Of a DNA stretch of 62,210 nucleotides, positions 42,661 through 47,031 are shown piece by piece. Under the pieces are notes generated by a model. That model ran no database searches, had not been told where the DNA came from, and saw nothing but the letters and a program-made list of their open reading frames with translations. Position numbers and translations under genes: made by a program. The DNA is taken from positions 1 to 62,210 of the forward strand of contig CALUFC010000012.1 in NCBI GenBank assembly GCA_944319885.1. The letters run 5' to 3'. The DNA is from an uncultured Coriobacteriaceae bacterium. Lineage in GTDB: Bacteria > Actinomycetota > Coriobacteriia > Coriobacteriales > Coriobacteriaceae. Numbering within the stretch: position 1 is the first letter of the stretch; every line of letters starts with the position of its first letter.

Positions 42661-42732
42661 ATAACGGAAGTGAATACCACTTCACTTCCGTTATTGCGCA
42701 CTATCGGAAGTGAATTGCTATTCGCTTCCGAT
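42661..42732 (+). promoter_or_regulatory. Twin palindromic operator upstream of fic
   Basis: Two near-identical palindromes lie in tandem. The first has 14 bp arms, ATAACGGAAGTGAA (42661-42674) and its exact complement (42681-42694). The second is ATCGGAAGTGAA (42703-42714) with TTCGCTTCCGAT (42721-42732), one mismatch. Both have a six-base spacer and their centres are 40 bp apart, close to four helical turns, as expected for cooperative binding on one face. They end 36 bp before the fic start codon, where a promoter must lie. The Fic protein has a winged-helix-like C-terminus, so it is a candidate for the binding protein. Confidence 0.75.
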
Positions 42733-42768
42733 GTTGGTACGCTAGGCGCAATGAAAAGGAGGCCGAAC

Positions 42769-43998
42769 ATGGATTCAGCATCATCTCGATGGCCATCACT
42801 AACATTCGAAGAACTTCTGTGGCACAGAGATCTTGATGAACTGCGCTTCCTGTCGAAGACTGCTCGCCAAAAGATTGGTTCGACCTATCGCGCTGCCATC
42901 CCGTTTGCTATCGGTAAGCGTTCGCTTGTCATACCTCCGCAACTGGCTGCGCGCATAGAGGAGGTCACCGGTCTTCTGTCTCGGTTTGACGAGACGCAAC
43001 AGCAACGCGGGTATGATTTGCCGGCGTTGTTGTTAAGAAGTGAATCGGCGGCAAGCTCGCAGATAGAAAATCTCACATCAAGCGCTCGAAATATTGCGCT
43101 CGCCGAGTTAACAAGCGATGCGCCTCACAATGCCCAAATCATTGCAGGCAATATCGCCGCCATGCGCGAAGCGCTATCCGGCGACGGTGAGCTAAGCATC
43201 GAGGCGGTCCTTGCTATCCATAAGGTTCTCATCGACCGTACCGGCCAGTCGTTTGGTGGCGAGCTTCGCGACGAGCAGGTTTGGATAGGCGGCTCGGCCT
43301 ATAGCCCCCATGGTGCGATCTATGTGCCTCCGCATGCAAAGAGGGTCAGGGGCTACTTGGAAGACATCATCGCCTTTGCTCGCCGGGATGATGTGGGCGC
43401 CATTGCAAAAGCTGCACTTGTTCATGCGCAATTCGAAACGGTGCACCCGTTTATCGACGGAAACGGCAGAACGGGAAGAACGCTGCTTCATCGCATCCTC
43501 AAGCAGGGGGGTGTGCTGGGCAGGGTAACATTGCCTGTTTCGGCAGGGTTGCTGCACAATATCGACCAATATCTGGAGAGTATTACGCGCTATCAGGAAG
43601 GCGATCCGCTGCCCGTAATCGAGGAGCTGCTTGACGCGCTTGAGTTTGCGCTTGCACTCGGTGAGATGGCTGCGCACATGGTCGATAAGGTGCTTGCTGA
43701 CTGGGAAGATCGTATAACCGAGCGAGCCGGTTCTAGCATGCACCGGCTTCCTGCCCTGCTTGTTCAGCATCCTGTGGTGAATGTGGCATTTTTGGCAGGG
43801 GAGCTCGAAATTACGCCGCGCGCTGCGCAGAATCTCGTTGCGCGCGCGTGCGAGTACAACATGCTACGAGCATTTGGCAACAAGCGCCGCGGCACCTTTT
43901 ACCAGGCGGACGATATCATTGATATTCTCGAACAGGCATCGAGCGTGCAGGGCGTGCGCCGACTTATTGCGGGGAAGCCGTGCGGCAAAGGTTGGTGA
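42769..43998 (+). CDS. Fic family protein with N-terminal inhibitory motif and C-terminal winged helix
   Basis: 409 residues from the ATG at 42769, with GGAGG six bases upstream; an ATG at 42751 is possible. The Fic active site HPFIDGNGRTGR is intact, so the enzyme should transfer AMP from ATP to a hydroxyl of a target protein. A likely class II inhibitory motif, SSQIEN, is at about residue 93. The last 90 residues (VVNVAFLAGELEITPRAAQ and FYQADDIIDILEQ) look like a winged helix. The gene is lower in GC than its neighbours. Two tandem palindromes directly upstream suggest tight or self control. Confidence 0.9.
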   Translation: MDSASSRWPSLTFEELLWHRDLDELRFLSKTARQKIGSTYRAAIPFAIGKRSLVIPPQLAARIEEVTGLLSRFDETQQQRGYDLPALLLRSESAASSQIENLTSSARNIALAELTSDAPHNAQIIAGNIAAMREALSGDGELSIEAVLAIHKVLIDRTGQSFGGELRDEQVWIGGSAYSPHGAIYVPPHAKRVRGYLEDIIAFARRDDVGAIAKAALVHAQFETVHPFIDGNGRTGRTLLHRILKQGGVLGRVTLPVSAGLLHNIDQYLESITRYQEGDPLPVIEELLDALEFALALGEMAAHMVDKVLADWEDRITERAGSSMHRLPALLVQHPVVNVAFLAGELEITPRAAQNLVARACEYNMLRAFGNKRRGTFYQADDIIDILEQASSVQGVRRLIAGKPCGKGW

Positions 43999-44073
43999 TG
44001 TGCCCTCGTCCGCAGTTCGTGGTCGCTCCCTTTGCTATCCTGAAGGCGATGTTTGCTTGAGAGTGGGGAGGCT

Positions 44074-47031
44074 ATGGGACTTGATGGTGAGATGCAGAAA
44101 GGCTGCTCTGCCTTTGAGCGTAGCTTAGCCGCATCGTTCATTGATGATTCGATCGATTCCGACGAGCGATTTCAAAGCCGTGTCATCGCCAATTCGCGGA
44201 CGATGGGGGAGAGTCTTCTCTCTGCAATCAAGCAACAGTTAAATACGTGCGACTCTTTCGATTTCTGTGTGGCGTTTGTAGCAGAGAGCGGCCTTTCTTG
44301 TCTGGTCCAGGTTCTTGCAGAGCTTCGTGCAAAAAATATACGAGGTAGGTTGCTCACTTCAACCTACCTTAACTTCAACACCCCGGTGGCGTTTCGAAAG
44401 CTCCTCGAGTATGACAACATCGAAACGCGTGTCTACCAAGGTGATCTACATGCAAAGAGCTACGTGTTTCAGCACGGCGGGATCTGTACGGTCATCATTG
44501 GCAGTGGAAACTTGACGCAATCTGCATTGACCTGCAATCGAGAGTGGAACGTCCTATTTCATTCTTACGATACGGGCGCGGTGTCACATTCCATAGGCAG
44601 AGAGTTTGAGGATCTGTGGAATGATGCCTCCACGGTAGGCTTGAGTGAGGCATGGATCAGGGGATACGAGGCTTTTCACGTTCACGCTGACCATAGGCAA
44701 GCGCGCATGAGCGCATATGTCGAAGAGCGTTTGGATCGAGATCTGATGCTGAGCGCTGAGAAGGGGATCAAGCCGAACGAAATGCAGACACGCGCCCTTG
44801 AGGCGCTTGGCGTTCTGCATACACGCAATGAGCCGCGAGCTCTGCTCGTATCGGCTACGGGGACCGGGAAAACCTATCTCTCTGCATTCGATGTCGAGCG
44901 CGTGAGGCCGAGGCGCGTGCTGTTCCTCGCTCATAGAAAACGGATCCTGGAAGCCTCGATGAAGAGCTATCAAAAGCTATTGGGTGATCGATACCGGTAT
45001 GAGGTGTATCGTCCGGGACAACTGTCCGAGGGAGACGCTTGCGTCTTTGCCATGTGCTCAACCATCGTACGGCATCTCGATGAGATCAATCCTGCCTTCT
45101 TCGACTACATCGTAGTTGACGAGGCGCATCGCACGGGATCGTCCAGCTACAAGAAGATCATGTCGTATCTTAAGCCAACGTTTTATCTCGGCATGACGGC
45201 GACTCCCAACCGAACTGACGGTTATGACGTGTTCGCGTTGTTCAATCATGTGATCGCGTATCAGATTACGCTGCAAGATGCTCTGGAAAATCATATGCTG
45301 GTGCCGTTTCACTACTATGGGATCGCGGACCTTACTATCGATTATGAGGAGGCGGATGATCCTGCCTTATTCTCGAGACTTGTATCTGGGGAGCGCGTTC
45401 GTCTCGTAACGGAGAAGATCGAGGAATATTCCGTTGATAAGCAGAACAGGAAAGGTCTGATCTTTTGCAATAGGAACGATGAGGCGCGTGAGCTATCGAA
45501 AAGATTCAACGAGCTTGGTTATAGAACCGAGGCGTTGAGCGGCGAAAACTCTGATGCTGAGCGAGACGATGCAATTGCGCGTCTCGAGACGGGCGAACTC
45601 GAGTACATCTTTTCTGTTGATATCTTCAACGAGGGAATCGATATTCCCAGCGTGAATCAGATTATCATGCTCAGGCGCACTGAGTCGGCGATTGTATTTG
45701 TGCAGCAGCTGGGGCGCGGACTCAGGAAGGACGAGGGGAAAGACTACACCCTCGTTCTGGATTTCATCGGCAACTACCAGAAGAATTTCTTCGTTCCCGT
45801 GGCGTTGTCGGGAGATAAGACGTACAACAAGGACAATCTTAGGACAATCGTAAGGGAGGGAAGTCTCGTCGTTCCGGGTGCCTCTACGGTCAGCTTTGAT
45901 CGAATCGCCGAAGCTCGAATTTACCGTGCGATTGATGGGGGTAACTTTACAGAGGCGAAATTCCTGAAGAATGAGTACACGGGGCTTCGGCAGATGGTCG
46001 GGCACATCCCATCGCTTAAAGAGTTCGACGCGCATGGATCCATCGATCCGCTGCTCATCTTCAAGAAATACGGATCATACCATGCTTTTCTTTTAAAAAA
46101 CGAAGGATCGTATAACGTTGAGTTTTCCCAAGCGCAGTGCGGCGTTCTTAAATTCTTGTCGCAGAAGCTTGCCAACGGCAAGCGGTTTGAGGAGCTCTAT
46201 GTGCTCCGCTCTCTTATCGAGGACGGGAATGAGACTATCGATGGCTTAGGCGATACGGCTCGACGATCCTTTGGTGTGGTTTCTCGAGCAACTATCTGGT
46301 GGTCTGCCGCTCATGTTCTCGAGGGCGATTTTTCCGTGGTTAAAGACGTCACGCCTTTGATGATGCATGATGAAACGGGTTTCCATCTCATGAAGCCACT
46401 CGCGCAGATGCTTCAAGATCATGAGTTTGCACGGCAAGTTATGGAAGTCATCGATTTCGGTATCAGCCGCTATCAGGAACGGTATTCCCAGCGGTATAGG
46501 GAAACGGGTTTCGTCCTCAATGAGAAGTACACCTATGAAGAGGCGTGCAGAATCCTTGGCTGGAAGAAAAATGTTAACGGGCAGAACATCGGAGGATATA
46601 AGTACGATGCGGAGACGAATACATTTCCGGTGTTCATCAACTACGATAAGGCGCCGGATATTGAAGATTCGATTCGTTACGAGGATCGGTTCGTGTCCAA
46701 TCGGGAGCTCATCGCGATCTCAAAGCAACCACGTGATATGCATTCTCCTGAGATTAAGCGACTTCAGGCTTGGCCGGATAACGGGATGAAGATCTATCTC
46801 TTTATGAGGAAGAATAAGGCTGATGAAGGCAGCAAGGAGTTTTATTTCTTTGGAGAAATGAGGCCTACAGGAGAATTCAAACCCATCATCATGCCCAAGG
46901 TAAATAAAAAGGCAGTCGAGATCACGTATTCCCTGGAGACACCAATTCGCCAAGACCTTTATGACTTCATGACCGCCAACCTTGATGAGAGGGAATTGAC
47001 CGCTACGGAGCGGCAGGGTGATAGCGCCTGA
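44074..47031 (+). CDS. HKD-nuclease/DEAD-type helicase/DUF3427 protein
   Basis: 985 residues; ATG at 44074 after GGGGAGG. The N-terminal phospholipase-D-like domain has the HKD-type motif LHAKSYVF and GSGNLTQSAL (about residues 125-155). The superfamily 2 helicase core follows, with ATGTGKTYLSA, VVDEAHR, GMTATPNRTDG and QQLGRGLRKDEGKD. The last 350 residues are the DUF3427 region. This fusion is widespread and, from its distribution, has been predicted to act in defence or DNA repair. The base composition is visibly more AT-rich than that of neighbouring genes, a sign of transfer. A MutT-type NUDIX gene, a common companion, faces it only four bases after the stop. Confidence 0.92.
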   Translation: MGLDGEMQKGCSAFERSLAASFIDDSIDSDERFQSRVIANSRTMGESLLSAIKQQLNTCDSFDFCVAFVAESGLSCLVQVLAELRAKNIRGRLLTSTYLNFNTPVAFRKLLEYDNIETRVYQGDLHAKSYVFQHGGICTVIIGSGNLTQSALTCNREWNVLFHSYDTGAVSHSIGREFEDLWNDASTVGLSEAWIRGYEAFHVHADHRQARMSAYVEERLDRDLMLSAEKGIKPNEMQTRALEALGVLHTRNEPRALLVSATGTGKTYLSAFDVERVRPRRVLFLAHRKRILEASMKSYQKLLGDRYRYEVYRPGQLSEGDACVFAMCSTIVRHLDEINPAFFDYIVVDEAHRTGSSSYKKIMSYLKPTFYLGMTATPNRTDGYDVFALFNHVIAYQITLQDALENHMLVPFHYYGIADLTIDYEEADDPALFSRLVSGERVRLVTEKIEEYSVDKQNRKGLIFCNRNDEARELSKRFNELGYRTEALSGENSDAERDDAIARLETGELEYIFSVDIFNEGIDIPSVNQIIMLRRTESAIVFVQQLGRGLRKDEGKDYTLVLDFIGNYQKNFFVPVALSGDKTYNKDNLRTIVREGSLVVPGASTVSFDRIAEARIYRAIDGGNFTEAKFLKNEYTGLRQMVGHIPSLKEFDAHGSIDPLLIFKKYGSYHAFLLKNEGSYNVEFSQAQCGVLKFLSQKLANGKRFEELYVLRSLIEDGNETIDGLGDTARRSFGVVSRATIWWSAAHVLEGDFSVVKDVTPLMMHDETGFHLMKPLAQMLQDHEFARQVMEVIDFGISRYQERYSQRYRETGFVLNEKYTYEEACRILGWKKNVNGQNIGGYKYDAETNTFPVFINYDKAPDIEDSIRYEDRFVSNRELIAISKQPRDMHSPEIKRLQAWPDNGMKIYLFMRKNKADEGSKEFYFFGEMRPTGEFKPIIMPKVNKKAVEITYSLETPIRQDLYDFMTANLDERELTATERQGDSA

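Follow-up and report, generated by a model that had tools for sequence, protein, structure and literature searches.

The window analyzed here, a stretch of 62,210 nucleotides from an uncultured Coriobacteriaceae bacterium, contains a gene for a Fic-domain protein that is preceded by two palindromes. The components of this locus are as follows:

42661-42694: palindrome 1 (distal), from the sequence and a repeat search; arms 42661-42674 and 42681-42694, 14 nt each, 100% complementary, 6 nt between them
42662-42674 (+) and 42681-42693 (opposite strand): half-sites of palindrome 1, TAACGGAAGTGAA, with a 6-nt spacer; conserved before orthologous fic genes
42703-42732: palindrome 2 (proximal); arms 42703-42715 and 42720-42732, 13 nt each, 92% complementary
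42702-42714 (+) and 42721-42733 (-): half-sites of palindrome 2, with one core mismatch, TTCGCTTCCG
42681-42714: inner inverted pair, formed by the right arm of palindrome 1 and the left arm of palindrome 2
42715-42743 (+): possible, weak promoter, TTGCTA-N17-TACGCT, whose putative -35 element falls inside the spacer of palindrome 2
42758-42762 (+): Shine-Dalgarno-like GGAGG before the fic ATG, read from the sequence
42769-43998 (+): fic, encoding a predicted 409-aa class II Fic protein with a C-terminal winged helix
43054-43071 (+): inhibitory motif S96-SQI-E100-N101, of the form (S/T)xxxE(G/N)
43444-43479 (+): Fic active-site motif HPFIDGNGRTGR, residues 226-237
43747-43941 (+): predicted winged helix, residues 327-391; helices 327-333, 339-346 and 350-362, strands 367-369 and 377-379
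43816-43854 (+): presumed recognition helix, within the winged helix

The motifs of the fic product mark it as a class II Fic protein, and AMP transfer is its predicted function. The active-site motif fits the signature HxFx(D/E)GNGRxxR and nearly all its residues are invariant in 37 homologues. N-terminal to it lies an intact inhibitory motif, SSQIEN, which is nearly invariant across the same homologues, with S96 and E100 being invariant in the alignment. The Pfam Fic model covers residues 142-244 (77.6 bits), Fic_N is sub-threshold and HTH_13 falls just under its cut-off (26.0 versus 26.1 bits). The C-terminus is confidently predicted to fold as a winged helix: an AlphaFold2 model based on the 37-homologue alignment (mean pLDDT 88.5; block means mostly >90 in residues 327-391) displays three helices plus a two-stranded wing at 327-379. 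Among solved structures, a FIC-domain protein from Mycobacterium marinum ranks first, followed by SoFic, with CccR (7XUX) and CbFic2 (8cil) lower. The M. marinum protein (PDB 7cb8, solved with CDP) is the closest relative of known structure that aligns over the full length, including the winged helix (Z 45.5, rmsd 2.4 over 383 residues, 29% identity); the model and the alignment to this relative agree on the winged-helix-like C-terminus that the first-pass annotation had noted. A partial literature search found no paper on DNA binding or regulation of the 7cb8 protein.

The two near-identical palindromes, whose centres at 42677.5 and 42717.5 lie exactly 40 bp from each other, can be read directly from the DNA, and their arms were confirmed by repeat search; as described at first pass, the pair ends 36 bp before the fic start codon (between 42732 and the ATG at 42769). 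The core said to be shared by both is perfect in palindrome 1, whereas palindrome 2 deviates from it at one position, and their placement on the same face of the DNA holds approximately: at about 10.5 bp per helical turn, 40 bp corresponds to about 3.8 turns. Since the right arm of the first site and the left arm of the second also form an inverted repeat, the two sites together make up a 66-bp super-palindrome (42665-42730; 33-nt arms, 85% complementary), and the repeat search reveals four half-sites of alternating orientation. The consensus CGGAAGTGAA-N6-TTCACTTCCG, with up to three mismatches allowed, has two matches in the window versus none in 100 dinucleotide-preserving shuffles. The whole 2.02-Mb genome has no further match, and none to the reversed control pattern: these palindromes are the only two, not members of a scattered repeat family. 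The possible promoter at 42715-42743 is also kept in an 89%-identical orthologue (L020).

The palindrome goes with fic well beyond the window. The 200 bp before the gene were scanned in 70 homologues, mostly actinobacterial, irrespective of the operator letters: a palindrome with at least 11 of 13 pairs precedes fic in 55 of these, versus 0/70 and 1/70 in two equal intragenic control windows. Among 398 genomes of the class, the palindrome is present in 43 of the 50 with a close fic homologue versus 38 of the 348 without one (Fisher P 9e-28); many of the latter 38 are probably noise, because a reversed control pattern is matched by chance in about 22 genomes. Conservation across 30 non-redundant Coriobacteriia loci amounts to 1.67 and 1.64 bits per position in the arms, 0.32 in the spacer, and 0.25 and 0.18 in the flanks, and in most Coriobacteriia orthologues some 30-60 bp separate the proximal palindrome from fic. 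The same scan recovered no clear operator in two Bacillota homologues (L029, L031), and the scan used found no strong palindrome just before the Fic paralogues of the bacterium's own genome (L009, L011, L013). A second Fic clade with fic-like genes about 33% identical (L085, L086, L087) has another palindrome upstream, TAACCTTG...CAAGGTT, which suggests the same arrangement in different letters.

Coriobacteriia loci with two or more palindromes space them by 40 bp (3 cases) or 41 bp (7 cases). In addition, outward-facing single half-sites are found 32-33 bp from the centre of the outermost palindrome, on the upstream side in 18 of 30 Coriobacteriia loci and on the downstream side in 14 of the 30; all remaining combinations of offset and orientation, taken as a control at these loci, give 4 and 2 matches. 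In 22 homologues with other operator letters, with all 22 operators assigned by eye, 14 of the 15 extra half-sites are in phase and one lies elsewhere, while shuffled flanks of these 22 contain 0.08 in-phase half-sites on average and at most 1. Five plasmid homologues were fetched later and their cores read off each sequence: three alternate, with gaps of 17-24-17, 17-24 and 21-20 bp, and two agree partially. The computational tests support the reading of the palindromes as an operator; the supposed pair, as judged from the aligned loci, is part of a longer row in which half-sites alternate in orientation and repeat every 40-41 bp, or nearly four helical turns. The window's own locus is without the additional flanking half-sites of its relatives. 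The simplest reading of the array is one of dimers arranged side by side, which may contact each other.

Outside Coriobacteriia the letters of the palindrome differ, e.g. TTACCAAAGGCTA, TATCCAAGCTTTC, TATTTGCACTTAG and TAGCATCACTTA; L038, with CCAAAGGCTA, is an example from a clade with a different operator. Similar operators are common to species with similar recognition helices. When Fic-domain distance is controlled, operator distance correlates with that of the HTH with a partial r of 0.65 (ten operators of the curated co-variation set were assigned by eye); the values for its parts are 0.58-0.61 for the recognition helix and 0.42-0.45 for the wing, versus 0.09-0.20 for the linker just before the winged helix. 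If Coriobacteriia are taken by themselves, the value is 0.42 for the recognition helix versus -0.01 for the linker; outside them the HTH signal is weaker, at 0.16-0.26. The N-terminal block used in the control has a small partial correlation of 0.22-0.30, which is partly built in by that use. Mantel-type permutation P values are inflated by shared ancestry; as the linker shares that ancestry, its contrast with the winged helix is a useful control. Comparison of these sequences indicates that the operator letters track the winged helix and not the neighbouring linker, and that across actinobacteria the array is maintained, with letters that vary in step with this domain.

The feature is real, and probably serves as operator for a class II Fic enzyme that regulates its own gene. 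The comparative basis consists of the sites, their association with fic, the geometry of the array and the co-variation with the winged helix; on it, we consider it very likely that the palindromes are bound by the winged helix of Fic itself in a negative feedback on its own gene. A pair of dimers, or a row of dimers touching one another, would sit on the four alternating half-sites with their 40-41 bp period; bound next to or over the fic promoter, they would keep expression low, and the target of this feedback would be a potentially toxic AMP-transferring enzyme. A sigma-70 consensus scan of the fic upstream region found no promoter, and promoter occlusion is hence suggested by the position of the sites. 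We likewise infer repression rather than activation, and cooperativity, at fic.

The principle of self-repression by a Fic-HTH protein is already known: CccR from Yersinia pseudotuberculosis has been shown experimentally to repress its own promoter via an inverted repeat (PMC9755527; PDB 7XUX). It has a class II Fic domain and a C-terminal HTH in the same order as the protein reported here, an inverted repeat before its own gene, and a distant structural match to this Fic (Foldseek TMq 0.54). However, the CccR operator is a single inverted repeat whose 10-bp boxes have 26 bp between them, a geometry that was looked for and not found at fic, where the arms are 6 bp apart and the period is 40-41 bp; moreover, CccR is a type VI secreted effector. 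By analogy, this fic may work like CccR, though with another type of operator. CbFic2 of Coxiella burnetii, also a class II Fic with a C-terminal HTH, binds DNA, and this binding can change the enzyme activity, with a switch from AMPylase to deAMPylase having been proposed (PMC10628234); in that case, binding was measured on random DNA, the activity is histone AMPylation and no operator is known (PMC10628234). A partial literature search turned up no publication about operators of actinobacterial Fic proteins, nor one naming the Fic family together with Collinsella. New here are the layout of the operator and the way in which it co-evolves with the winged helix.

The most serious objection to the operator reading comes from palindromes without fic, most of which, among those examined, look like scars of fic loss. 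The flanks of G010 and G012 are 95-97% identical; G012 is without the 1.3 kb holding fic and retains the first site and half of the second. In the genus g11, the flanks are common to species that have fic and species that lack it, and several retain only the last 25-60 fic codons beside the operator; in G401 (L143), an open frame without stops beside the operator still covers 81 residues of the winged helix. Essentially the whole catalytic part is missing in all fic remnants seen. The palindrome in G053 adjoins a DUF2130 gene that comes after fic in G042; in G059 and G063, three palindromes lie beside a helicase gene that in the window comes after fic and a restriction gene. A reading of the orphans as a wider regulon was largely rejected on account of the fic deletion in G012 and the G053 and G059/G063 sites beside genes that neighbour fic; palindromes in G034, G051, G221 and some others are not accounted for by such scars. 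Because the orphan loci were found by palindrome search, retention of the operator after fic loss is not readable as selection. The fic gene is reduced to a C-terminal remnant directly behind the operator in L133, L134, L138, L124, L063 and L143. L077 (1500-1604) and L080 (about 1460-1570) have three palindromes in 40-41 bp steps without fic, amid diverged intergenic DNA, and neither genome yielded a Fic-type winged helix; these are probably scars, though with arms that look unusually well kept. L078 and L079, two species of one genus, have a weaker palindrome, GGAAGCGAAGGCAGGCTCGCTTCC, near 1501, which in L079 is about 650 bp from a broken fic-like gene.

Most genomes with orphan palindromes, among them G059, G063, G012 and G034, yielded no Fic-type winged helix elsewhere, and this persistence of the palindromes would favour an unlinked transcription factor, rather than Fic, as the protein that binds them and controls fic. 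We hold this to be quite improbable: differences in operator sequence between clades follow those of the Fic winged helix, such a factor would have one target in the bacterium's own genome, with sites only before fic, and the orphan sites of G012, G053 and G059/G063 occupy positions at which relatives have fic or its neighbours. A different question is what Fic would do once bound. It could act mainly as an activator, or the operator could serve chiefly to switch its activity from AMPylase to deAMPylase, with repression being secondary; DNA binding induces dimers of CbFic2 and shifts its activity (PMC10628234), and this Fic likewise combines the class II motif with a winged helix. The proximal site, however, adjoins the ribosome-binding region and any promoter, which favours repression, and CccR, the nearest functionally tested case, represses (PMC9755527); hence, we regard this alternative as unlikely.

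The perfect 14-bp stem and 6-nt loop that directly follow the upstream gene thpR could in principle act as RNA, either as the terminator of thpR or as a hairpin in the fic leader. This was rejected as very improbable, given that the scan found no terminator-like site at the palindromes, that the sequence is conserved and not the pairing alone, and that many of the conserved extra elements are partnerless single half-sites in fixed phase, which a hairpin leaves unexplained. The occurrence of palindromes in some genomes lacking fic, together with fic homologues on plasmids, might instead point to a dispersed REP-like repeat or to mobile-element ends that happen to precede fic; yet each genome has only a few copies, which almost always form a single cluster, either in front of fic or at a fic scar, and the bacterium's own genome has two copies, both before fic, and no other. 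A dispersed repeat was rejected on these grounds, and this origin appears extremely improbable.

If self-repression by Fic's own winged helix is true, Fic-HTH autoregulation would no longer be limited to CccR, the one protein tested, but would extend to a large set of actinobacterial proteins, and the conserved operator geometry, with letters that change with the winged helix, would offer a natural series for learning the recognition code. It would also suggest a way in which class II Fic toxins of the SoFic kind that consist of a single gene may stay low in uninfected cells; descriptions to date mention autoinhibition for these and, in one case, an antitoxin. This Fic shares with SoFic the two-domain layout and the class II motif, and the PADLOC SoFic model matches residues 41-388 (E 5.6e-61, 204.9 bits, profile positions 7-359 of 361). 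The NCBIfam SoFic equivalog, however, scores 52.4 bits versus a cut-off of 550: by these profiles it is a distant relative of SoFic and not its orthologue. EcSofic is toxic and dimeric and is countered by AS1, a 47-residue antitoxin encoded downstream; DNA binding is not discussed for it (PMC12249575). A downstream AS1-like antitoxin was rejected for the present locus from the ORF table, the gap of about 55-80 bp between fic and the next gene being too short for one. A bolder proposal, which we consider unlikely, is that SoFic-like Fic-winged-helix proteins of actinobacteria are one-gene toxin-repressors: dimers would stack on the 41-bp-period array, DNA occupancy would keep the enzyme harmless (dimeric, deAMPylating), and loss of the array complex in phage infection would both derepress fic and switch the enzyme on.

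No fic homologue was found in phage records at E 1e-20. By its PADLOC match (mREase_IV, E 4e-183), the gene after fic (44053-47031) resembles type IV methyl-directed restriction enzymes; it has the Pfam domains ResIII (helicase), PLDc_2 and DUF3427. Judged from these resemblances, a role in defence is plausible. A relative of this gene also adjoins fic in L020 and L082.
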